Below are positions 21,870 through 45,374 of a stretch of DNA of 64,000 nucleotides, one piece after another. Each line of letters starts with the position of its first letter. The stretch's first letter is position 1. The stretch spans positions 186,001 through 250,000 of the forward strand of contig NC_010794.1 in assembly GCF_000019665.1 (NCBI RefSeq). The letters are read 5' to 3'. A program made the position numbers and the translations under genes. The stretch comes from Methylacidiphilum infernorum V4 (GTDB taxonomy: Bacteria; Verrucomicrobiota; Verrucomicrobiia; Methylacidiphilales; Methylacidiphilaceae). Below the pieces are notes generated by a model. The model made no database searches and had not been told where the DNA came from. It saw nothing but the letters and a program-made list of their open reading frames with translations.

Positions 21870-22382
21870 ATGGTGCAGACAAAAACCCTTACTTACAACT
21901 CCCCGATCGAAGGCGATGTTGTCGTTACTCGACTCGATGCAGCAATTAACTGGATGAGAAAAAATTCGTTATGGCCGATGCCTATGGGACTTGCTTGCTG
22001 TGCAATAGAGTTAATGGCTTCGGCATGCGCCCGCTTTGACATTTCTCGTTTTGGAGCGGAGGTCATGCGTTTTTCGCCTCGACAATGCGATGTCATGATA
22101 GTTGCTGGAACGGTGACTTACAAAATGGCTTATTCGGTAAAAAGAATATACGAGCAGATGCCCGATCCCAAGTGGGTTATATCCATGGGAGCGTGTGCCT
22201 CCAGTGGGGGGATGTATAGGAGTTATTCTGTTCTTCAAGGCATCGACCAGCTTATCCCTGTTGACGTCTATGTGTCTGGCTGTCCACCAAGGCCAGAGGC
22301 CCTGCTTGATGCTTTGATAAAGCTTCAGGAAAAAATAGATAAGGAAGCTTCTTTGCGTCGTTTGAAACAATCGGCGGCATAA
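21870..22382 (+). CDS. nuoB: NADH-quinone oxidoreductase subunit B
   Basis: NuoB holds iron-sulfur cluster N2, the last electron carrier before quinone in complex I. The 170-residue protein has the tandem cysteines Cys43-Cys44 in [10 protein letters not shown], a further ligand in [11 protein letters not shown] near residue 108, and [16 protein letters not shown] near residue 138, so all four N2 ligands are present. It is the first gene of a nuoBCDEFGH cluster. The usual nuoA is not found upstream, where a phosphatase gene is divergent. Confidence 0.97.
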
Positions 22383-22411
22383 GGATCTGAGAAGGGATTA
22401 TTTTTAAGATT

Positions 22412-23053
22412 ATGCCTGTTTTATCTTTACCTTTAGCTGAAGAAATCCAAAAAGTTTTTAGTATTAAGCTCTTGGAAGTAAAAGAGTTTCGAGGGGAGTG
22501 GACCCTTGTCATGGATCTGTCCATAATCCAACAGGTTGCTCGATATTTAAAAGAAGAAAAGGGTTTTGGCCTTCTTCTCGATATTTCCGGGGTAGATCAT
22601 TGGGGAGAAGAACCTCGATTTGAGGTTGTATATCATTTTTATAACCTGCAAAAGGCTACCCTTTTGAGGGTCAAGGGTAGAGTAAGCGAGGCCAATCCTA
22701 TCGTTCCGACTCTTTCTTTTATTTATCCTACGGCCAATTGGCATGAAAGGGAAGCCTACGATATGTTTGGGATTATTTTTGAAGGCCATCCCGATTTGCG
22801 CCGTATTTTAATGTGGGAAGGTTATCCTTATTATCCTTTAAGAAAGGATTTTCCCGTGGAAGGAAAGGAAACCGATCAAAGCCCGGTAGCCTTTGCCAAG
22901 CCAGCACCCCTTGATGGAGGGCCTTTTGTCAGTCGTCCGGCAAAGCTCAGCGTGGAGAGGGAGCCAAGAGCCAGGGAAGATGAAGAGCTTTTAGAAGAAC
23001 TTGAAGAATTGAAAGAGCAACAAGAGAACACCACTTTATCCAAAAAAGAATAA
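22412..23053 (+). CDS. nuoC: NADH-quinone oxidoreductase subunit C
   Basis: NuoC is a peripheral-arm subunit of complex I next to NuoD. The 213-residue protein has the family blocks LLDISGVDHWGEEPRFEVVY near residue 50, and NWHEREAYDMFGIIFEGHPD followed by LRRILMWEGYPYYPLRKDFP near residues 110-150. A charged tail rich in Glu (about residues 170-213) extends past the conserved core. It is not fused to NuoD, unlike in E. coli. It lies 29 bases after nuoB and 4 before nuoD. Confidence 0.95.
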   Translation: MPVLSLPLAEEIQKVFSIKLLEVKEFRGEWTLVMDLSIIQQVARYLKEEKGFGLLLDISGVDHWGEEPRFEVVYHFYNLQKATLLRVKGRVSEANPIVPTLSFIYPTANWHEREAYDMFGIIFEGHPDLRRILMWEGYPYYPLRKDFPVEGKETDQSPVAFAKPAPLDGGPFVSRPAKLSVEREPRAREDEELLEELEELKEQQENTTLSKKE

Positions 23054-23057
23054 TAAT

Positions 23058-24314
23058 ATGGCTGAGGGTTTAACGAGAGAAGTTCGAATGGAAGTTCCAG
23101 ATACAGCTGAACTTCTAAGAAGATCAGAAGATATTTCGGGTGCACCTGAAGGAGAAAGACTTATCCTCAACATGGGACCTTCGCATCCGAGTACCCATGG
23201 TGTATTTCAACTTTTGCTTGAACTGGATGGCGAGGTGATCACGAAGGCTATTCCCGAGGTCGGATACCTGCATCGGGGAGATGAGAAAATAGCTGAAAAT
23301 ATGCAGTATAATCAATTCGTTCCGTATACGGATCGACTAGACTACCTTGCCCCTCTTGCCAATAACGTGGTGTATGCCTGTGCTGTAGAAAAACTGTTGG
23401 GGTGGGAAATTCCTGCCCGTGCTCAAGTAATCCGGGTCATTTGTTCGGAAATGGCAAGAATTTCTTCTCATTTGATGGGATTGGGGGCTTATGCGATGGA
23501 TTGTGGAGCTGTCTCCGTGTTCTTGTACACTTTTACGGAAAGAGAAAAGATCTATTTGCTCATTGAGGAGCTTACCGGTGCCCGTTTTACAACATCTTAT
23601 ACGAGGATAGGAGGATTGACTAGGGATCTTCCTCCGGGTTGGACAGAAAAGCTTAAAGATTTTATTAAGCAGTTTTTACCCAAGGTTGATGAAATTGAAG
23701 GGTTGTTAACGAAAAACAAGATCTTTGTCGATCGTACCCAGGATATTGGAATCATCTCCAAGGAAGACGCGATCGATTATGGCCTGACGGGACCAAACTT
23801 GAGGGGGAGCGGAGTCGATCATGACTTGAGGAAAAAAAACCCTTACCTTGGATATGAAAAATATGATTTCGAAGTTCCCCTGGGGAGTGTTGGGGATTGT
23901 TTCGATAGGTACATGGTCAGGATCGAGGAAATGAGGCAGAGTTGTAGGATACTCGATCAAGCCTTGGCGGATATTCCTCCCGGCCCCATCGCTGTTGATG
24001 AACCTAGGGGTTATCTTCCCAAGAAGTCTGCAGTTTTAACGAAAATGGAGGAGCTTATCCAGCACTTTATTGTTGTTACTCAAGGGGTGGATGTGCCTCC
24101 CGGTGAAGTCTATTTTGGTGGTGAAAATCCAAAAGGAGAACTGGGGTTTTATATTGTAAGCAAAGGGGGTGGGGTCCCCTACCGCTTGAAAATACGTTCT
24201 CCTTCATTTGTCAATTTAAGTATATTGCCCAAAATTCTTCCCGGTCATCTCTTAAGCGACGTTGTGGCTATTCTCGGCAGTTTGGACTTTGTCATGGGAG
24301 AATGCGATAGATAA
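23058..24314 (+). CDS. nuoD: NADH-quinone oxidoreductase subunit D
   Basis: NuoD lines the quinone-binding cavity of complex I and descends from the large subunit of NiFe hydrogenases. The 418-residue protein has LNMGPSHPSTHGVFQLLLEL (near residue 37), GYLHRGDEKIAENMQYNQFV near residue 68, and the C-terminal MGECDR. About 30 extra N-terminal residues precede the conserved start. It is followed after 58 bases by nuoE. Confidence 0.97.
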   Translation: MAEGLTREVRMEVPDTAELLRRSEDISGAPEGERLILNMGPSHPSTHGVFQLLLELDGEVITKAIPEVGYLHRGDEKIAENMQYNQFVPYTDRLDYLAPLANNVVYACAVEKLLGWEIPARAQVIRVICSEMARISSHLMGLGAYAMDCGAVSVFLYTFTEREKIYLLIEELTGARFTTSYTRIGGLTRDLPPGWTEKLKDFIKQFLPKVDEIEGLLTKNKIFVDRTQDIGIISKEDAIDYGLTGPNLRGSGVDHDLRKKNPYLGYEKYDFEVPLGSVGDCFDRYMVRIEEMRQSCRILDQALADIPPGPIAVDEPRGYLPKKSAVLTKMEELIQHFIVVTQGVDVPPGEVYFGGENPKGELGFYIVSKGGGVPYRLKIRSPSFVNLSILPKILPGHLLSDVVAILGSLDFVMGECDR

Positions 24315-24372
24315 CAAGGAGGAGAGTTTTTTAAAGGTTGTTGGAGTTTCAATATAAACTTAAAGCTTAAAA

Positions 24373-24888
24373 ATGAATACGGTTGAAACAGTGCCACCGC
24401 ATTTGGATCAAGGATTTATCGATGAGGCGGAGAAGATCATCAGCCAATATCCGGTCTCTAAAAGGAGTGCTTCCCTGCCTTTGCTGCATTTATGGCAGAA
24501 ACACTTTGGATATGTTTCCAGAGAAGGAGTGGAATGGATAGCGCAAAAATTGGAATTGGAGCCCATAGCTGTTGAAGAGATTGCCACCTTTTATCCCATG
24601 ATTCGTCATAGGCCCCTAGGTAAATATCAATTTAAAGTCTGTAGGACTCTTTCTTGTGCGTTAGCGGGCAGCTACCAACTTTTTGATTATATCAAGCAGA
24701 ACTGTAATGCTCTTCAGGAAGTGGGCCATCATGTTTATCTCAGCGAGGACGGTCAATTTTCAGTAGAGTTTGTTGAATGCCTTGCCGCTTGTGGAAATGC
24801 TCCCGTGATGATGATTAACGAGGAGGAGTGGATGGATGTGACCAAAGAAAAAATTCAAGGAATCCTGGCCCAGTTAAGAAAAAAATAA
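24373..24888 (+). CDS. nuoE: NADH-quinone oxidoreductase subunit E
   Basis: NuoE carries the binuclear cluster N1a of the NADH-input module. The 171-residue thioredoxin-like protein has the four cysteines in VCRTLSCALAG near residue 93 and in VECLAACGNAPVMMIN near residue 137, the standard [2Fe-2S] spacing. The N-terminal helical part (KRSASLPLLHLWQKHFGYVS) is also typical. It lies 22 bases before nuoF. Confidence 0.95.
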   Translation: MNTVETVPPHLDQGFIDEAEKIISQYPVSKRSASLPLLHLWQKHFGYVSREGVEWIAQKLELEPIAVEEIATFYPMIRHRPLGKYQFKVCRTLSCALAGSYQLFDYIKQNCNALQEVGHHVYLSEDGQFSVEFVECLAACGNAPVMMINEEEWMDVTKEKIQGILAQLRKK

Positions 24889-24910
24889 AGTTAAGGAGAG
24901 TTTTTTATCC

Positions 24911-26287
24911 ATGTCCTTTAAGCCTGAATATCGACTCATTCTAAAATACGCCGATAGTCCCGGTTATACCGTAGACATAGATTGCTACTTGCAACACGGA
25001 GGCTACCAAGTCTTAAAAAAAGCCCTCAGTTTGGATCCTTTCTTTATAGTTCAAGAAGTTAAGAAATCGGGTTTAAGGGGGAGGGGAGGAGCCGGGTTCC
25101 CTACGGGTGTAAAATGGGGATTTATCAATCATGAAAAGAATACAAAGCCCGTGTATCTGCTTTGCAATGCCGATGAATCCGAACCGGGTACATTCAAGGA
25201 TAGGCAGATTATTTACAAAGATCCCCATCAGCTAATCGAGGGTATGATCATTAGTGCTTATGCTAATCGGGCACACCTGGGTTATATCTACATAAGAGGG
25301 GAGTTTGCAAGGGGGGCTGAAATTTTAGAAAAAGCGCTCTCGGAAGCAAGGGAAAGAAATTTTTTAGGCAAAAACATCCTCGGTAGCGGTTACGATTTGG
25401 AGATTTACGTTTTTCGTGGAGCAGGAGCTTACATATGCGGCGAGGAAACAGGTCTTATTGAATCCTTGGAAGGGAAAAGGGCCTACCCGAGGATAAAACC
25501 CCCCTATTTTCCCGCTGTCTTAGGATTGTATATGTGCCCTACCATCGTGAATAACGTGGAGACTCTTTGTCATGTCAAGCACATTGTGGATATGGGTGGA
25601 GAGGCCTTTGCCCAAATAGGGACTCCCAACAATACGGGAACCCGGATATGGTGCGTGAGTGGAGATGTCAATAAACCAGGGTATTATGAGTATCCTTGTG
25701 GGGCGATTACTTTTGGTGAGCTTCTTTACGAGGTATGCGGGGGGATTAGAAACGGCAATAAGCTTAAGGCGGTAATTCCCGGGGGGTCATCGGCTAAGGT
25801 GTTGCGAGCGGATAAAAAATACAAGATACCGAAGAAAAAAAGCGATGGAACGACCGAAATGGTTGAAGTGGGACTGGAAGATATTCCCTTGGATTTTGAT
25901 ACCGTGGCCGCTACAGGTTCCATGTCCGGCTCAGGGGGAATCATCGTCATGGATGACACCCGCGATATGGTCGAATGCCTGAGGAATATAGCGGAGTTTT
26001 ATGCTCATGAATCTTGTGGACAGTGTACCCCCTGTAGGGAAGGCTCCCTATGGATGAAAAAAATACTTGATAGGATATGCAGAGGTAAGGGAAGAAAGGA
26101 AGACAGCCAACTTCTTCTCGATGTGGCCAACCATATTGCAGGCAGAACTATCTGTGCCTTTGGAGAAGCCTGTTCCTGGCCTGTGCAGAGTTTTGTGGAA
26201 ATGTTTGAAGAAGAATTTACAGCTAAAGTAAAAGAAGAACCTCCGCCGATGGAAATTTTAGGACCGGCGGTAGGGACAGTTTCTTAA
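24911..26287 (+). CDS. nuoF: NADH-quinone oxidoreductase subunit F
   Basis: NuoF binds NADH and FMN and cluster N3, and is the electron entry site of complex I. The 458-residue protein has the NADH/FMN glycine-rich GLRGRGGAGFPTGVKW near residue 55, NADESEPGTFKDR near residue 87, GAGAYICGEETGLIESLEG near residue 170, and the N3 motif SCGQCTPCREG near residue 370 with a later Cys in TICAFGEAC. An insertion near residue 305 (YKIPKKKSDGTTEMVEVG) is longer than in E. coli. Confidence 0.97.
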   Translation: MSFKPEYRLILKYADSPGYTVDIDCYLQHGGYQVLKKALSLDPFFIVQEVKKSGLRGRGGAGFPTGVKWGFINHEKNTKPVYLLCNADESEPGTFKDRQIIYKDPHQLIEGMIISAYANRAHLGYIYIRGEFARGAEILEKALSEARERNFLGKNILGSGYDLEIYVFRGAGAYICGEETGLIESLEGKRAYPRIKPPYFPAVLGLYMCPTIVNNVETLCHVKHIVDMGGEAFAQIGTPNNTGTRIWCVSGDVNKPGYYEYPCGAITFGELLYEVCGGIRNGNKLKAVIPGGSSAKVLRADKKYKIPKKKSDGTTEMVEVGLEDIPLDFDTVAATGSMSGSGGIIVMDDTRDMVECLRNIAEFYAHESCGQCTPCREGSLWMKKILDRICRGKGRKEDSQLLLDVANHIAGRTICAFGEACSWPVQSFVEMFEEEFTAKVKEEPPPMEILGPAVGTVS

Positions 26288-26320
26288 CGAAGCTCGTAAG
26301 GGAAAACAAAAGAAAAAACT

Positions 26321-28015
26321 ATGAGTGCGGCGATCAAAAATCCCTTCAATCATGATTTAGTCCCTGCGGATACTCCTCTTGTCAACGTTCAACTCGATGG
26401 GCAATGGGTGAAGGTCCCCAAGGGACTGAACGTGATCGAAATTGCCAAGCGCTTTGGTAAATTTATCCCCCATTATTGTTACCATCCCAAGCTTTCCATA
26501 GCGGGTAACTGCCGCATGTGTCTTTTCGAGATGGGAGTCCCCAAATTAGATGCCCAACGGAAGCCCCTCCTCGATGACAAGGGCATGCCCCTCATCAATT
26601 GGTTACCTAGACCCCAGATTGCTTGTGCTACTCAAGCCACCGAGGGCATGGCTATCAAGACCAACTCCTTCCTTACTCGGGATTGTCAGGAAGGAGTAAC
26701 GGAGTTTCTCCTCATCAATCATCCCTTGGACTGTCCTATATGCGACCAGGCTGGGGAATGTCGGTTGCAGGAGTATTCTTATGATTTTGGAAGAGGGAGG
26801 AGTCGCTTTGTTGAAGAAAAGGTAAAGAAACCTAAACGGGTGGAGCTAGGCCCTAGGATTGTGCTCGATGACGAGAGATGCATCCTTTGTTCTCGGTGTA
26901 TCCGTTTTGCCCGTGAAATAGCCAAACAAGACGTCATTGGTTTTCTCAGCCGTGGCAGTTATTCGACCTTGACCGTCTATCCGGGTAGGCCCTTTGATAG
27001 CAACTATTCTCTCAATACCGTGGATATATGCCCGGTTGGGGCATTGACGAGCAAGGATTTCCGCTTCAAGATGAGAGTTTGGTTTTTAAGGGAAACCAAG
27101 AGTATATGCACCGATTGTGGGACCGGTTGTAACGTGATCATAGGAAGTAGGGAAAATGTCGTTTATAGGCTGACTCCTCGGGTAAACGAAGAGGTTAATT
27201 CCCATTGGATGTGTGATCAGGGTAGATTAGGGTTTCATTATATTCATAGCAAAAAAAGAATTATCGAACCGGCTACACATCTAAACGGTTCCTTGTTTCC
27301 CCTGGAATGGAAAGAAGCGCTTCGTACGGTAGCGCAAAGACTTAGAGAATTTTCTCCTTCGGAAATCGCCTTTTTGGTTTCAGCAAAGCTGACCTGTGAA
27401 GAGCTTTTCCTCCTGAAAAAACTCATGGAAGTTTTAGGGAAAGAGGGGACAGTATTTTCAGAAATTGTTCCCAGGAAAGGAGTAGCCGATTTTTTGCTTA
27501 GAAGCGAAGACCTCAATCCAAATACTCTGGGGACTGTTTACATGGGTATTGGGAAAAAAGGGGAAAAGTTGACTGCATTGAAGGAGAAGATTCGGGCAAA
27601 AGAGATAAAATGCCTCTGGGCTATTCATGAGAACCCTGAAGAAATCGAGATATCCGAGGATCTTCTGAGTTCGCTTTCCTTTTATGTTTGGCAAGGATTG
27701 ATCCCTGGACCCTCTATCCACACCGCCCATGTTCTTTTAGCCGGAGCAAGTTTTGCCGAGAAGAGCGGCACGATGATCAATATTGCGGGAAGGCTGCAAA
27801 AACTGCACAAGGCGATATTGTGCCCGGGAAGGGCGAGGGAAGATTGGAGAATTTTTAGGGACCTTCTGGGAGAAGTAGGATGGAATGAGAGGTCCTTTGA
27901 GAACATAGGGCAAGTTTTTGAAGCGATGGCTCAAGAGGTAGAGATCTTTAAAGGTCTTGCTTGGACAAGCATTGGAGATCTGGGGATCGATTTAAGTCAA
28001 AAATGCAAAGCTTGA
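26321..28015 (+). CDS. nuoG: NADH-quinone oxidoreductase subunit G, short form
   Basis: NuoG carries several Fe-S clusters of the peripheral arm. The 564-residue protein has the N-terminal [2Fe-2S] cysteines (HYCYHPKLSIAGNCRMC, near residues 51-67), the His-Cys3 cluster HPLDCPICDQAGECRLQEYS near residue 134, CILCSRCIRFARE near residue 187, and DICPVGAL near residue 237. An N7-like CTDCGTGCNV follows. The molybdopterin-like C-terminal domain is much shorter than the 780-910-residue proteins of Thermus and E. coli, keeping only a remnant. The stop is clean and the next gene follows after 37 bases, so this looks like a natural short form, not a truncation. Confidence 0.93.
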   Translation: MSAAIKNPFNHDLVPADTPLVNVQLDGQWVKVPKGLNVIEIAKRFGKFIPHYCYHPKLSIAGNCRMCLFEMGVPKLDAQRKPLLDDKGMPLINWLPRPQIACATQATEGMAIKTNSFLTRDCQEGVTEFLLINHPLDCPICDQAGECRLQEYSYDFGRGRSRFVEEKVKKPKRVELGPRIVLDDERCILCSRCIRFAREIAKQDVIGFLSRGSYSTLTVYPGRPFDSNYSLNTVDICPVGALTSKDFRFKMRVWFLRETKSICTDCGTGCNVIIGSRENVVYRLTPRVNEEVNSHWMCDQGRLGFHYIHSKKRIIEPATHLNGSLFPLEWKEALRTVAQRLREFSPSEIAFLVSAKLTCEELFLLKKLMEVLGKEGTVFSEIVPRKGVADFLLRSEDLNPNTLGTVYMGIGKKGEKLTALKEKIRAKEIKCLWAIHENPEEIEISEDLLSSLSFYVWQGLIPGPSIHTAHVLLAGASFAEKSGTMINIAGRLQKLHKAILCPGRAREDWRIFRDLLGEVGWNERSFENIGQVFEAMAQEVEIFKGLAWTSIGDLGIDLSQKCKA

Positions 28016-28052
28016 TTTTCTTTGCGACGAGAAATTACTGGAAAAGTCAACA

Positions 28053-29180
28053 ATGAACGACGCAATGGTTATTTTTATTGTCAGTACCCTTGTTAAAATC
28101 ATCCTGGTAGTAGGGATACTCTTGGGTGTTGTGGCTTATACGGTTTTGGCCGAGAGGAAAATTTGTGCGGCTATCCAGGATAGAGTGGGGCCTAACCGGG
28201 TGGGACTTCCTTTTTTAAAAAGCCGTCTTTGGGGGTTGGGGCAACCTATTGCTGATGCCTTCAAGCTCATGCTTAAAGAACAATTTGTTCCTCGTGTTGT
28301 AAAAAAATTTTATTATTCTCTAGCCCCTTTTTTTGTCATTGTTCCCCCCTTGATTATTATCGGGTTCATTCCCTTTGCTTCCATAGATCCGGTTACCCTT
28401 TCTTCTTTAAAAATAATTATACCTCAACCAGGGGTAATTATCAATTCGGGAACCGGGGTTCTCTGGGCGTTTGCCATTAGTTCGCTCAGCGTTTATGGGA
28501 TTGTTCTGGCCGGATGGTCTTCTAATTCAAAATATGCTTTTCTTGGAGGGATACGGTCTACCGCCCAGATGATCTCTTATGAGGTGGCTTTGGGCTTTTC
28601 GATCATTCCCGTTTTTCTTTTAACGGGCAGTTTGAATTTTTCAGAAATTGTTCAGTACCAGATTGAACACGGCTGGTTGCTCTTTCCTTTTCTGGGTAAA
28701 CATCCAGATTTTCGACTGTTTGTCTTTTGGCCCTTTCTTTTTCTTTCTTTTTTGATTTTTATGGTGGCTTTGTTTGCAGAAACGAACCGCGCTCCCTTTG
28801 ATCTCCCCGAAAGCGAACAGGAACTTGTCGCGGGATATAATACCGAGTACGGAGGCATGAAATTCGGCATGTTTTTCTTGGGGGAATATGCCGCGATGAT
28901 TGCGGCCAGTTCTTTGATCATCACCTTATTTCTCGGAGGGTGGAGCTTGCCTTTTGGTTGGTTATCTGAAGGGAAAAGTCTTGGAGTCATTTTGCTCCAG
29001 GCCCTTGTTTTCTTGTTAAAAATACTGATTTTTTTGTTTCTCTTCATATGGGTTCGATGGACGTTACCGCGCTTTAGGTACGACCAACTCATGAATCTGG
29101 GCTGGAAGATTTTTCTTCCCTTGGCAATGGTGAACATCGGATGTGTAGCCACTCTCTTGGCTTTCATTAAATCTCCCTAA
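28053..29180 (+). CDS. nuoH: NADH-quinone oxidoreductase subunit H
   Basis: NuoH is the membrane subunit that joins the peripheral arm to the proton-pumping arm and forms part of the quinone tunnel. The 375-residue protein has eight or so membrane spans, AERKICAAIQDRVGPNRVG near residue 33, and the conserved loop AETNRAPFDLPESEQELVAG near residue 244. It is the last nuo gene here. nuoI and the pumping subunits nuoJ-N do not follow. Confidence 0.96.
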   Translation: MNDAMVIFIVSTLVKIILVVGILLGVVAYTVLAERKICAAIQDRVGPNRVGLPFLKSRLWGLGQPIADAFKLMLKEQFVPRVVKKFYYSLAPFFVIVPPLIIIGFIPFASIDPVTLSSLKIIIPQPGVIINSGTGVLWAFAISSLSVYGIVLAGWSSNSKYAFLGGIRSTAQMISYEVALGFSIIPVFLLTGSLNFSEIVQYQIEHGWLLFPFLGKHPDFRLFVFWPFLFLSFLIFMVALFAETNRAPFDLPESEQELVAGYNTEYGGMKFGMFFLGEYAAMIAASSLIITLFLGGWSLPFGWLSEGKSLGVILLQALVFLLKILIFLFLFIWVRWTLPRFRYDQLMNLGWKIFLPLAMVNIGCVATLLAFIKSP

Positions 29181-29388
29181 ATATCCTCCTCTTTTGGGTT
29201 TTGGAAGAAAACAGGAAAAAAATAGGAAGAAAATAAAATAGGCTGTATTTTTTTTAAATTTTTTAAGGCTTTAAAATTTTTTTTTGTGGGAAATTTTACT
29301 TTTTTTTGAATTGTATGATGATTTTAGAAACTTTTTGTTTTCATTTTTTTGTATTAGAAAATTTAAAAAATTGGAGGAACCTTTAGAA

Positions 29389-31203
29389 TTGGCACCGAAC
29401 GACTCTATCAATAATATAAGTAAACTTCCCGAGGTGGCTCCGCTCACAATCCTCGAAAGAGCATGGATCAGCGGTTATTTAGCCGGTATAATGGAGTATG
29501 CCAAAGCAGGAGCTCCCCTTCCTTCTATTCCCAAGTGGGCTCCTATTTCAGAAACAGCCAGGCAATGGGCTGAACAATTTATATTCAATCTGCTTGTTTT
29601 CTCTCCCCTTCCGGAAGAAGAAAAAAAAGAAGAACTTTCAATTGCTCAAACTCCACCTCAAACAACGATTAGGATTTTTTATGGAAGTCAGACGGGAAAT
29701 GCTGAAGAACTGGCAAAAAGGATGGGTAGAAAACTTCAATCCGTCAATTTTCCCGTAACCGTTATCGACCTTGCTGATTATAAAAGCGTGGATTTAACAA
29801 AAGAATCGTATGCATTGTTTTGTGTAAGTACTTTTGGGGAAGGGGAGCCTCCAGACAATGCACGGGAGTTCTGGGAATTTTTATCCTCCCCCCAAGCGCC
29901 AAGGCTGGATAATCTAAAGTATGCCCTGCTGGCCCTAGGAGATTCAGCCTATCCTGATTTTTGTCAAGCGGGTAAGAATATAGATAAAAGATTGGAAGAA
30001 CTAGGTGCTCAACGAATTTTCCCGAGAATCGATTGTGACGTCGATTACGAAGAGTCGGCATCGAAATGGATTGAAAATGTTTTCGAAATATTACCTCGGA
30101 CTTTACAGGTTAACGTTGGAGAAAATAGGCATGTAGGAGAATTAAGGGAAGAAGGTCCAAAAACCCTGGCCTCTCCCTCTCTTGCCCCAAAAATACCCCA
30201 AGCTCCCTTTACCAAGCACAATCCTTTCCCTTCCAGGGTGTTAGAGAACAGGCGGTTGACATTGATGGGGTCTGAGAAAGAGACAAGGCACATAGAACTT
30301 TCCTTGGAAGGCTCGGAACTTTGTTATCTACCTGGAGATGCGGTTGGAGTCTATCCAACAAACTGGCCTGTACTTGTCCAGGAAATTATAGAAACCTTGG
30401 GATATACGGGAGAAGAAATTGTCCCCACGCCAAGTGGTGAAAACGTTCCCTTGAGAGAGGCTCTTTATCGATATTATGAGATAAATTCTATACTGGATGA
30501 CTTTCCTAAAAAAGGGATCGGGGCGGTTGAACTTGTTCAAAACTTGAGATCTCTTTCTCCAAGATACTACTCTATTGCTTCCAGTCCAAAAGTACACGAG
30601 ATGGAACTCCACCTTACTGTTGTGGTTGTAAGGTATATTCAGCATGGCCGCTGGAGAAGAGGAGTATGTTCGAACTTTCTGGCTGAAGCTACACCCAAGG
30701 TGCCTATCCCGATCTTTATTCGGCCGAATCCTAATTTTAGGCTACCTGCCGATCCTTCGATCCCCATCATTATGATTGGACCCGGGACCGGGATTGCTCC
30801 CTTTAGAGCTTTTTTGCAGGAAAGGGCAGCAATAGGGGCGAAAGGAAAAAATTGGCTTTTTTTTGGAGAACAACACCGTTCTACGGATTTCTTTTATCAA
30901 GAGGAATTAGAAAATTATCTTAAAGAAGGCATATTGACTCGGCTTGATACCGCTTTTTCTCGTGATCAATCTTATAAAATTTATGTTCAGCACCGCATGC
31001 TCGAGAAGGCGCAAGAGATTTGGGCATGGCTTCAGGAGGGAGCTTTTATTTATGTGTGTGGAGATGCCCATAGGATGGCCAAGGACGTTGACATCGCGCT
31101 TCACCAGATATGCGAAAAGGCCGGAGGTCTCTCTAAAGAGAAAGCGCAAGAGTACATGCAGAATTTGCGCTCTACAAAAAGGTATTTACGTGACGTCTAC
31201 TGA
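29389..31203 (+). CDS. cysJ: Sulfite reductase flavoprotein alpha subunit-like diflavin reductase
   Basis: CysJ passes electrons from NADPH through FAD and FMN, usually to the sulfite reductase hemoprotein CysI. From a TTG start the 604-residue protein has the CysJ leader (LTILERAWISGYLAGIM near residue 20), a flavodoxin domain with FYGSQTGNAEELAKRMG near residue 100, FAD motifs RYYSIASSPK and GVCSNFLAE, NADPH motif IGPGTGIAPFRAFLQER near residue 465, and the C-terminal YVCGDAHRMAKDV and KRYLRDVY. I chose TTG at 29389 because GGAGG (29373-29377) sits 11 bases before it and E. coli CysJ aligns from there. Frame-open codons further upstream are T-rich and unlikely to be coding. No cysI or cysH is adjacent. 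Confidence 0.87.
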   Translation: MAPNDSINNISKLPEVAPLTILERAWISGYLAGIMEYAKAGAPLPSIPKWAPISETARQWAEQFIFNLLVFSPLPEEEKKEELSIAQTPPQTTIRIFYGSQTGNAEELAKRMGRKLQSVNFPVTVIDLADYKSVDLTKESYALFCVSTFGEGEPPDNAREFWEFLSSPQAPRLDNLKYALLALGDSAYPDFCQAGKNIDKRLEELGAQRIFPRIDCDVDYEESASKWIENVFEILPRTLQVNVGENRHVGELREEGPKTLASPSLAPKIPQAPFTKHNPFPSRVLENRRLTLMGSEKETRHIELSLEGSELCYLPGDAVGVYPTNWPVLVQEIIETLGYTGEEIVPTPSGENVPLREALYRYYEINSILDDFPKKGIGAVELVQNLRSLSPRYYSIASSPKVHEMELHLTVVVVRYIQHGRWRRGVCSNFLAEATPKVPIPIFIRPNPNFRLPADPSIPIIMIGPGTGIAPFRAFLQERAAIGAKGKNWLFFGEQHRSTDFFYQEELENYLKEGILTRLDTAFSRDQSYKIYVQHRMLEKAQEIWAWLQEGAFIYVCGDAHRMAKDVDIALHQICEKAGGLSKEKAQEYMQNLRSTKRYLRDVY

Positions 31204-42896: not shown

Positions 42897-43673
42897 ATGA
42901 AATCTTCTCATGTAGATCAAGCTTCCAAGAAAAACAAGGAATGGACAGAAGCGGTGGTTATTGAAGAAATCAAAAAATGGCATGCAGCCGGAAAGCCATT
43001 GTTTTCCCATTACATGAGAAAACACTATCAAGAATTGCTCGCTGCGGCCGTCCGTTATTTTGGGAACTGGGGCAAGGCGGTTCATGCTGCCGGTTTTACT
43101 TATGATGAGATCCGTCGTTATAGAGCCTGGTCTAAAGAAAAGATCATCCAGATGATTCAACAACTCTACCGCCAGGGCACCGATCTTTCTTTTCGATCCA
43201 TGATGCTCAGCGAATATGCACCGATGGTTTATGCGGCTATACGACCCAATTACTTTGGCAGTTGGAAGAATGCCCTTCTTGCGGCGGGACTAGCTCCCGA
43301 GGATATTTATAGGTATAAATCTTGGAAAAATGAAAATATCCTCGAGGAGATTAGGAGGTTGTATAACGAGGGAGCAGATTTGAGCTCTAAGCAGATGGAA
43401 AAAAATGCGAGCTCTTTGATCGCCATAGCCAGGCGCAGGTTTGGGAGTTGGTCTGCCGCCGTCGAACAAGCTGGGCTTAATTATGATGCCATTCGTAACC
43501 GCAAGAGGTGGTCCAGGGAGCTTATCATTCAAGGCATAAGATCCTTGAAGGATAAGGGTATACCTTTAACCAGCACTCGGGTTAGGGAAGTGGATCCCTC
43601 GCTTTTTGCCGCTGCTTGTAAGAAAAGGTTTTTTGGCAGTTGGAAAAAGGCCGTTCAAAGCGCTTTAGTTTAG
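42897..43673 (+). CDS. Protein of four tandem HNH-associated (HNH_repeat-like) modules
   Basis: The 258-residue protein is four degenerate repeats of about 55-60 residues with almost nothing else. Each has Trp, then a helix (IIxxIxxLxxxG), a hinge, a second helix ending in an aromatic-FGSW or FGNW turn, then AAxxAGL and a Tyr/Asp-rich link. Examples are YFGNWGKAVHAAGFTYDEIR, YFGSWKNALLAAGLAPEDIY and RFGSWSAAVEQAGLNYDAIR. The pattern matches the small repeat found beside HNH/homing endonucleases, thought to bind DNA. There is no nuclease domain here. A putative promoter precedes it and the basic, aromatic composition fits DNA binding, but function is unknown. Confidence 0.75.
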   Translation: MKSSHVDQASKKNKEWTEAVVIEEIKKWHAAGKPLFSHYMRKHYQELLAAAVRYFGNWGKAVHAAGFTYDEIRRYRAWSKEKIIQMIQQLYRQGTDLSFRSMMLSEYAPMVYAAIRPNYFGSWKNALLAAGLAPEDIYRYKSWKNENILEEIRRLYNEGADLSSKQMEKNASSLIAIARRRFGSWSAAVEQAGLNYDAIRNRKRWSRELIIQGIRSLKDKGIPLTSTRVREVDPSLFAAACKKRFFGSWKKAVQSALV

Positions 43674-43787: not shown

Positions 43788-44858
43788 TTGAAAAGTATTT
43801 TCTTTATTCCTCTTTTGCTTTTTTCTTTTTTCCCATTGTCCTTTGCGGCTGAAGTTTCACATTCCTTAAAAACCCACCTCAAGCTCAGAGTGGCGACCAG
43901 GAATGATCCCCCTTTTTCCTTTAAAGGGGTCGATGGAGAATGGGAAGGGATAGCGGTTGATTTATGGAGAAGGATTACCGCCGATTTAAGCATCCCCTTT
44001 GAGTTTGTTGAACTGCCCGCAGACCAGGATGTGATGATCCACAACCTGGTGAATGGGAAAGTCGATGTTGTTGTTACAGGAATAGGGGTAGATACGAACC
44101 TTTTAAAAAGAGTCGCCTTTAGTTATCCATTTCTTACCTCGGGGTTGGGGGTTGCCTATAAATCCAGTCCTGTCAGTTCGTTGCAGGCTGTTTTTCGTTT
44201 TATGCTCAGTTCGGAATTTTTGGCTGTCGTTTGTGGAATGGGATTTTTGACTTTTATTGCGGGATTGGGGGTATGGATTTTTGAAAGGAAAAAAAATCCT
44301 CATTTTGGAGGAAGTTTTATTCACGGGATAGGGAACTCTTTTTGGTGGGCTGCGGTAACCATGACTACCATCGGTTATGGAGATAAAGTGCCAAGAACCG
44401 TGGGGGGAAGGACCGTCGCCATGGTTTGGATGTTCGTCGGTGTTGTACTCCTCTCTTTTTTTACAGCCTGGATTACTGCTGGAGTGGCTTTGGAAAAAGT
44501 CAGTTTAGATATAGTCAAGCTTAAAGATCTTTCGCAGATCCGTGTGGCCACGGTAAGAGATTCTCTAGGAAGCTATTATCTAAAGAAAAGACATATTCGG
44601 GCTATCCTCTTTAACAATCTGGAAGAAGCCCTTGAAGCTGTTAAAGAGAGGAAAGCCGATGCCGTCCTAGACGAAATCGAAGAGATGCGTTACCTGATCC
44701 ATAAAAATTTTGGAGGGGAGCTGGAAGTTTCGGATAAAACTTTTGCAAGAATTGATTATGCCTTTGCCTTTCGTCAAGGAGACGACCTCCAGAGGGAGGT
44801 CGATGGATGGATTATTGCTCACATCAATGAATTAAAAAGCTACGTATCTCTCCATTAA
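43788..44858 (+). CDS. GluR0-like ionotropic glutamate receptor / ligand-gated potassium channel
   Basis: The 356-residue protein has a signal peptide (residues 1-20), a solute-binding half (LRVATRNDPPFSFKGVDGEW from about residue 31), then a membrane span near residue 145, a pore loop with TTIGYGDK at 193-200, a second span (VAMVWMFVGVVLLSFFTAWI), and the second binding half (RVATVRDSLGSYYLKKRHIR to the end). This S1-M1-P-M2-S2 order is that of prokaryotic glutamate receptors such as GluR0, with a potassium-type GYG filter. The start is TTG at 43788, because an in-frame ATG 30 bases upstream runs into a stop. Ligand-gated potassium flux is inferred from architecture. It is an isolated gene. 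Confidence 0.88.
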   Translation: MKSIFFIPLLLFSFFPLSFAAEVSHSLKTHLKLRVATRNDPPFSFKGVDGEWEGIAVDLWRRITADLSIPFEFVELPADQDVMIHNLVNGKVDVVVTGIGVDTNLLKRVAFSYPFLTSGLGVAYKSSPVSSLQAVFRFMLSSEFLAVVCGMGFLTFIAGLGVWIFERKKNPHFGGSFIHGIGNSFWWAAVTMTTIGYGDKVPRTVGGRTVAMVWMFVGVVLLSFFTAWITAGVALEKVSLDIVKLKDLSQIRVATVRDSLGSYYLKKRHIRAILFNNLEEALEAVKERKADAVLDEIEEMRYLIHKNFGGELEVSDKTFARIDYAFAFRQGDDLQREVDGWIIAHINELKSYVSLH

Positions 44859-45005: not shown

Positions 45006-45374
45006 TTAGAACAGTCGAACACAAGCAAGCACAACGATAAAGAAAAAACCATTCAGTACAATTCCAATAATACAAGAGGGCCTGGAATATTCCTTGAAAG
45101 AAAAGCTGACTGCCCCAAAAAGGATCCCAAAAAAATTAGCAACGAGTCCAAGGAATGTAAAGAAGCCAATCAATGCCGAGCTAAATTCAGTTTCGCTTCC
45201 ACTAGCCCTCAGGATGAGCTCACTAAAAGCCATGACTATCCAATAAAACAGGCTAGAGATGGCGATAAGAAGACTTATTCTTCGACTCCACCCTCCAACA
45301 TGACCTAAAGATCTTTTTAATGCCTCCTCCATGAAGTTTACCATGGAGTAAAAAAAAATACTATGCAAGAGCAT
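45006..45374 (-). CDS. Small membrane protein, unknown function
   Basis: Up to 122 residues with three hydrophobic segments (ISLLIAISSLFYWIVMAF near residue 33, LIGFFTFLGLVANFFGILFG near residue 68, and a final one near residue 105), resembling small DUF4190-type membrane proteins. The ATG at 45332 is an alternative start that drops a hydrophobic leader. In another frame the DNA just downstream (44880-45005) encodes a sensible-looking tail with NIAPIKVDLKIPGLKDIGG. A single frameshift would join the two, so the gene may be frameshifted or the tail may be chance. No function is assigned. Confidence 0.6.
   Translation of the reverse strand: MLLHSIFFYSMVNFMEEALKRSLGHVGGWSRRISLLIAISSLFYWIVMAFSELILRASGSETEFSSALIGFFTFLGLVANFFGILFGAVSFSFKEYSRPSCIIGIVLNGFFFIVVLACVRLF

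Follow-up and report, generated by a model that had tools for sequence, protein, structure and literature searches.

Our analysis indicates that Methylacidiphilum infernorum V4 encodes a protein whose architecture genuinely places it in the prokaryotic potassium-selective ionotropic glutamate receptor (iGluR) family (Group 1, or GluR0 type); in this protein, the residues that would clamp an amino-acid ligand have been altered. We modestly favor the reading that it is an inverted K+-selective channel whose trigger is not a free alpha-amino acid held in the usual manner. The gene lies in a window of 64,000 nucleotides (the whole stretch of DNA analyzed) from a genome that consists of one contig of 2,287,145 bp; the host bears out the acidophilic verrucomicrobium suspected in the initial annotation.

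Gene architecture and predicted fold

The channel gene occupies 43788..44858 on the + strand (356 amino acids plus a stop codon, TTG start), exactly the open reading frame delimited by the initial annotation, which was also right about the domain layout and the TTIGYGDK motif, here at residues 193–200. Four Pfam families matched the gene, all beyond curated cut-offs: SBP_bac_3 (1.1e-16, S1), Ion_trans_2 (3.2e-14, residues 178–228), Lig_chan (2.2e-13), and Ion_trans (4.5e-10). These E-values rule out a chance reading frame. The features of the gene are as follows.

43788..44858 (+): whole gene, K+ channel subunit of GluR0 architecture (reading frame, Pfam, model)
43788..43850 (+): putative N-terminal signal peptide, MKSIFFIPLLLFSFFPLSFAA (identified by eye; model confidence is low here)
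43881..44171 (+): S1, first periplasmic-binding-protein lobe, residues 32–128 (Pfam, phmmer, model)
44085..44102 (+): altered S1 ligand motif G100-V-D-T-N-L105, T-x-T-x-x-R in relatives (alignments)
44211..44285 (+): M1 transmembrane helix, residues 142–166, followed by a putatively cytoplasmic ERKKN (model; GluR0 analogy)
44301..44324 (+): span with His172 and His179 as its first and last codons, putatively on the cytoplasmic side (Methylacidiphilaceae alignment)
44316..44363 (+): pore helix, residues 177–192 (model)
44364..44387 (+): K+ selectivity filter TTIGYGDK, residues 193–200 (sequence, Pfam, alignment)
44400..44495 (+): M2 transmembrane helix, residues 205–236 (model, Methylacidiphilaceae alignment)
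44505..44837 (+): S2, second lobe, residues 240–350 (phmmer, model, alignment)
44673..44675 (+): S2 acid position, Glu296 (alignment)

An AlphaFold2 model of the protein, built from 77 window and genome-collection sequences, reached a mean pLDDT of 90.7; the alignment behind the structure did not draw on relatives from a separate genome search. It shows a two-part alpha/beta periplasmic-binding fold split around a helix (142–166), a pore helix (177–192) that leads into the filter, and a long helix (205–236). Pfam, the model, and structural matches thus agree that the S1 and S2 lobes flank M1, pore loop, and M2 within one chain. Both the pore loop between two spans and the binding fold are present in the model, and the GluR0-like layout proposed from the letters of the sequence stands, as does the K+-type GYG filter, for which TTIGYGDK and the Ion_trans_2 match agree.

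The top Foldseek matches of the model were AMPA receptors, and a second-look structural alignment ranked two crystallized GluR0 ligand-binding cores first: 2pyy from Nostoc (Z 25.9, 3.0 Å over 207 residues, 25% identity) and 1ii5 from Synechocystis (Z 25.3, 2.7 Å over 214 residues, 22% identity). Because entries less than 1 Z apart count as tied in this ranking, it speaks for kinship of fold and not for the ligand. The rmsd was lower against several apo or antagonist-bound cores (1.8–2.1 Å) than against the two glutamate-bound GluR0 cores (2.7–3.0 Å), which suggests that the predicted model represents an open-cleft state.

The closest functional comparison is GluR0 itself (Slr1257, Synechocystis sp. 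PCC 6803), which shares the S1-M1-P-M2-S2 order and GYG filter and likewise has neither an N-terminal domain nor M4. Its inverted orientation in the membrane was demonstrated with PhoA fusions; GluR0 enables E. coli LB2003 to take up K+, for which its soluble domains are needed, and slows shrinkage upon KCl upshock (PMC13099474). GluR0 is gated by glutamate, whereas the channel described here is known from its sequence and a predicted model. The ligand motifs also differ: GluR0 has GPISVTPER, with the arginine, and an S2 aspartate (MFDRPA), in place of GIGVDTNL and DEIEE in our protein. The Nostoc punctiforme NpGluR0 core (2pyy), the closest solved structure by the second-look alignment, similarly has SITAER and the S2 aspartate, unlike the channel, and its structure contains bound L-glutamate. 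Group 1 prokaryotic iGluRs as defined by Ger et al. 2010 (PMC2950845) have S1 and S2 flanking two helices, a K+-type filter, and Ion_trans_2, all features of this protein, from which they differ in that its ligand motif is altered. The group was then defined by 12 sequences, and the main text of that study names no verrucomicrobial member.

An altered ligand site throughout the Methylacidiphilaceae members

In iGluRs, an S1 arginine binds the alpha-carboxylate of the ligand and an S2 acid binds its alpha-amino group (PMC12147327). The equivalent of the arginine lies at position 105, where 86% of 83 relatives have Arg and all 12 Methylacidiphilaceae members have Leu, Gln, or Tyr (Leu in five of five Methylacidiphilum; Leu, Gln, or Tyr in Methylacidimicrobium). 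The S1 motif contains no insertion or deletion in any of the 12, and the residue equivalent to T100 just before it is Gly or Ala (Gly in the channel itself). At the S2 acid position, 296, Asp occurs in 88% of the 83 relatives; Methylacidiphilum carries Glu, which retains the acid, and Methylacidimicrobium carries Arg. AMPA receptors use Glu at this position, so in Methylacidiphilum only the arginine appears clearly lost from the clamp. A C-terminal Trp found at position 351 in 78% of relatives is missing from the channel. Conserved residues particular to the Methylacidiphilaceae members cluster in M2 (W228, A231, V233, A234, and E236-S239, the last extending into the linker), in the M2-S2 linker, and at His172 and His179 before the pore helix, a pattern that hints at altered gating.

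These assignments do not depend on one alignment: an independent phmmer comparison with 2pyy paired the same residues as the multi-relative comparison, aligning residues 90–124 without gaps so that Leu105 stands opposite the ligand arginine and E296 falls on the S2 aspartate. Judged by these residues, the channel is unlikely to work as an amino-acid receptor. The initial annotation had asked which amino acid the protein senses, a question that presupposes an amino-acid site, yet both defining charged residues are replaced across the 12 members; it is probably the wrong question for this channel, whose opener is probably something other than glutamate.

Other verrucomicrobial relatives mostly retain Arg at 105, and Arg is absent in 12 of 85 other relatives, among them members of Martelella, Desulfobacterales, and Bacteroidales; to our knowledge, the taxa in this Arg-less set are mostly not extreme acidophiles. 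Loss of the arginine is therefore not specific to life in acid, and acid as its sole cause is not supported. The tree forces few separate Arg losses, their number being uncertain, and independent pairs of Arg and Asp loss are too few for a correlation. The isoelectric point of the binding domain was uninformative as an acid signature (mean 5.8 in Methylacidiphilum versus 5.1 in others, with wide spread).

Eukaryotic receptors offer a parallel. Acid-sensing insect ionotropic receptors (IRs) retain the S1 arginine and amine-sensing IRs diverge there (PMC12147327); some epsilon iGluRs also lack it (R485; PMC12226733). Like our protein, the amine-sensing IRs and R485-less epsilon receptors keep the fold and have lost the carboxylate-binding arginine, and their ligand range has changed. 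Unlike it, they are eukaryotic, possess M4, and have other pore types; any likeness in the lost arginine would be convergent.

Several relatives recovered in our scan were unusual in other respects. Two from Bradyrhizobium (L059:5845-6993 and L069:5854-7071) have the S1-M1-P-M2-S2 layout and keep the ligand Arg and Asp, and their pores read AGAAQ or AGAAH in place of VGYGD; because of this replacement, they are probably not K+-selective. An Arg-less relative with a GYG filter (L101:2980-4077, nearest to Cesiribacter) lies on a 51.6 kb contig filed as viral in IMG/VR, possibly a prophage or host DNA. Another GYG-filter relative (L097:1835-2896) comes from a short contig in the assembly of a Methanophagales archaeon, where contamination is possible; Ger et al. 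2010 found no such receptors in archaea (PMC2950845).

Distribution, locus, and selection

Contrary to the initial annotation, the architecture is not rare: in a scan of 84,980 species genomes, at least 499 DNA segments coded for relatives of this protein with pore motifs, and the 80 kept from these span many phyla. Among Verrucomicrobiota, 20 of 289 sampled genomes contain a relative. The gene is present with an intact reading frame in five of five Methylacidiphilum genomes searched and in seven of seven genomes of a sister genus (g3) that we infer to be Methylacidimicrobium; it is absent from one further genus of the Methylacidiphilaceae (G005).

In all seven genomes compared, the gene order is CysK, GT9, an HNH-repeat gene, the channel, a convergent 122-aa gene, and an RND pump. 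The 12 Methylacidiphilaceae proteins form a single clade (support 100) inside a tree of GYG-filter relatives in which deep branches are weak; the tree includes a cyanobacterial GYG relative (L084) and was built without Slr1257. The shared locus, the single clade, and presence throughout both genera are explained most simply by inheritance of the gene from a common ancestor of the family. Recent acquisition is not supported, given the single clade and the one locus conserved in both genera.

Wherever dN/dS was unsaturated, it did not exceed 0.31 in S1, S2, and the pore, nor 0.15 when the pore region is taken alone; GYGD is invariant in 12 of 12 members. Purifying selection across S1, pore, and S2 indicates that the binding domain is still used. 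Together with the Pfam matches and the intact reading frames of relatives, the dN/dS values lead us to reject a pseudogene.

The neighboring genes have features of their own. The HNH-repeat gene just upstream (42897-43673, +), always found in that position, encodes three or more PF18780 HNH_repeat units, and an HNH domain was not found in it; identity of its product is 88–94% inside the genus, compared with about 65% in the sister genus, and the product is more conserved than the channel. The convergent gene (45006-45374, −; 7/7 genomes compared) encodes a hydrophobic 122-aa protein with no Pfam match. PADLOC gave no defense-system match, promoter and terminator scans at the channel gene gave no sites beyond shuffled expectation, and repeats were trivial only. 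Elsewhere in the window (21870-31203, +), inspection by eye suggests an ordered series of reading frames for NuoB through NuoH, followed by a flavodoxin/reductase-like one.

What may open the channel

The topology, tetrameric assembly, gating direction, K+ current, and physiological role of the channel are matters on which we infer. In the reading we favor, the gene product would be one subunit of a presumed tetrameric K+-selective channel of the prokaryotic iGluR type. A signal peptide would direct the two lobes of S1-S2 to the acidic periplasm. The TTIGYGDK pore loop would dip into the membrane from the cytoplasmic side, upside down compared with KcsA, an orientation that has been measured for GluR0; both the N-terminus, which resembles a signal peptide, and the ERKKN loop that follows M1 are consistent with such a topology. 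On closing, the clamshell would pull on M2 and thereby open the pore. Since the canonical alpha-amino-acid clamp appears to be gone from the clamshell in the Methylacidiphilaceae members, the trigger would most likely be some other small molecule, perhaps an amine or a protonated compound. Potassium passing down its electrochemical gradient would then shift membrane potential or turgor.

Several considerations count against this reading. The opposite charges at position 296 (Glu versus Arg) weaken any single-ligand account, since the two genera may not share one ligand; position 296 may not contact the ligand; the Glu of Methylacidiphilum leaves the arginine as the one clear loss there; an amino-acid site could be restored by side chains located in other parts of the protein; and the arginine is also lost in relatives outside the acidophiles.

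An alternative that we regard as possible but fairly unlikely is that the channel is independent of ligand, its binding domain kept only for the mechanics of assembly and gating, and that it opens constitutively, in response to voltage or tension, or with pH, through protonation either in the periplasm or at His172 and His179 on the presumed cytoplasmic side. Absence of the clamp residues from all 12 members would fit, and so would the two histidines, kept in 12 of 12 members versus 13 of 88 and 4 of 88 elsewhere. In GluR0, the soluble domains and their dimerization are required for K+ transport in E. coli (PMC13099474), and the inside-positive potential of acidophiles requires K+ to enter the cell (PMC9543262); TrkH (Trk/Ktr) and Kup families were not detected in the M. 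infernorum V4 genome. However, purifying selection persists on S1 and S2, the complete two-lobed fold is retained in the model, and histidines on the presumed cytoplasmic side would sense the pH inside the cell and not outside.

That the protein is an ordinary amino-acid-gated channel of the GluR0 type, holding its ligand by residues that stand in for the canonical Arg and Asp, we consider improbable. Its best Z matches are GluR0-glutamate complexes, Glu296 can bind the amino group of the ligand, the role that Glu has in AMPA receptors, and Ser259 of the S2 N-terminal loop is retained in Methylacidiphilum. Set against these are the uncharged residues at 105 in both genera, the Gly or Ala at the T100 equivalent, and the Arg at 296 in Methylacidimicrobium. 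At the acidic outside pH of the host, moreover, an alpha-carboxylate would be partly protonated as a matter of general chemistry. It is very improbable indeed that the protein is a non-functional channel, decaying or repurposed as a membrane receptor: loss of the ligand site could mark the onset of decay, but reading frames are intact in all five Methylacidiphilum and seven Methylacidimicrobium genomes searched, and the pore is both invariant in its GYGD and strongly constrained (dN/dS at most 0.15).

Potassium and acid in the host

Acidophiles are thought to block protons by an inside-positive potential arising from K+ movement, and a genome-based inventory of these methanotrophs lists a Kch-like channel, Kdp, and Kup (the last in Methylacidimicrobium) as makers of a reversed membrane potential; the main text of that acid-resistance inventory leaves a glutamate receptor unmentioned (PMC9543262). 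In the M. infernorum V4 genome we detected KdpA and one other Ion_trans_2 channel, so that the gene described here encodes one of only two Ion_trans_2 channels; it also gives the only SBP_bac_3 match. With so few channels, TrkH and Kup families not detected, and by analogy with GluR0, the protein may carry K+ flux and help adjust membrane potential under acid stress.

A more specific version of our preferred reading, which we hold to be speculative and quite improbable as a whole, is that of a receptor retooled across the family in extremely acidophilic methanotrophs, a K+ channel opened by a periplasmic cue that is not an amino acid, setting an inside-positive potential that repels protons. 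Candidate cues would be protons, or an amine such as GABA or agmatine exported by decarboxylase-antiporter pairs; acid-resistance pairs of this kind have been described in M. infernorum (PMC2474590).

Alongside Kdp and the other channel, this protein is an overlooked candidate K+ route in the Methylacidiphilum and Methylacidimicrobium genomes searched. It would also represent a natural bacterial receptor of the iGluR type that lacks the amino-acid clamp and is still under selection, paralleling insect ionotropic receptors, and as one small protein it makes the question of what a clamp-less receptor senses directly testable.
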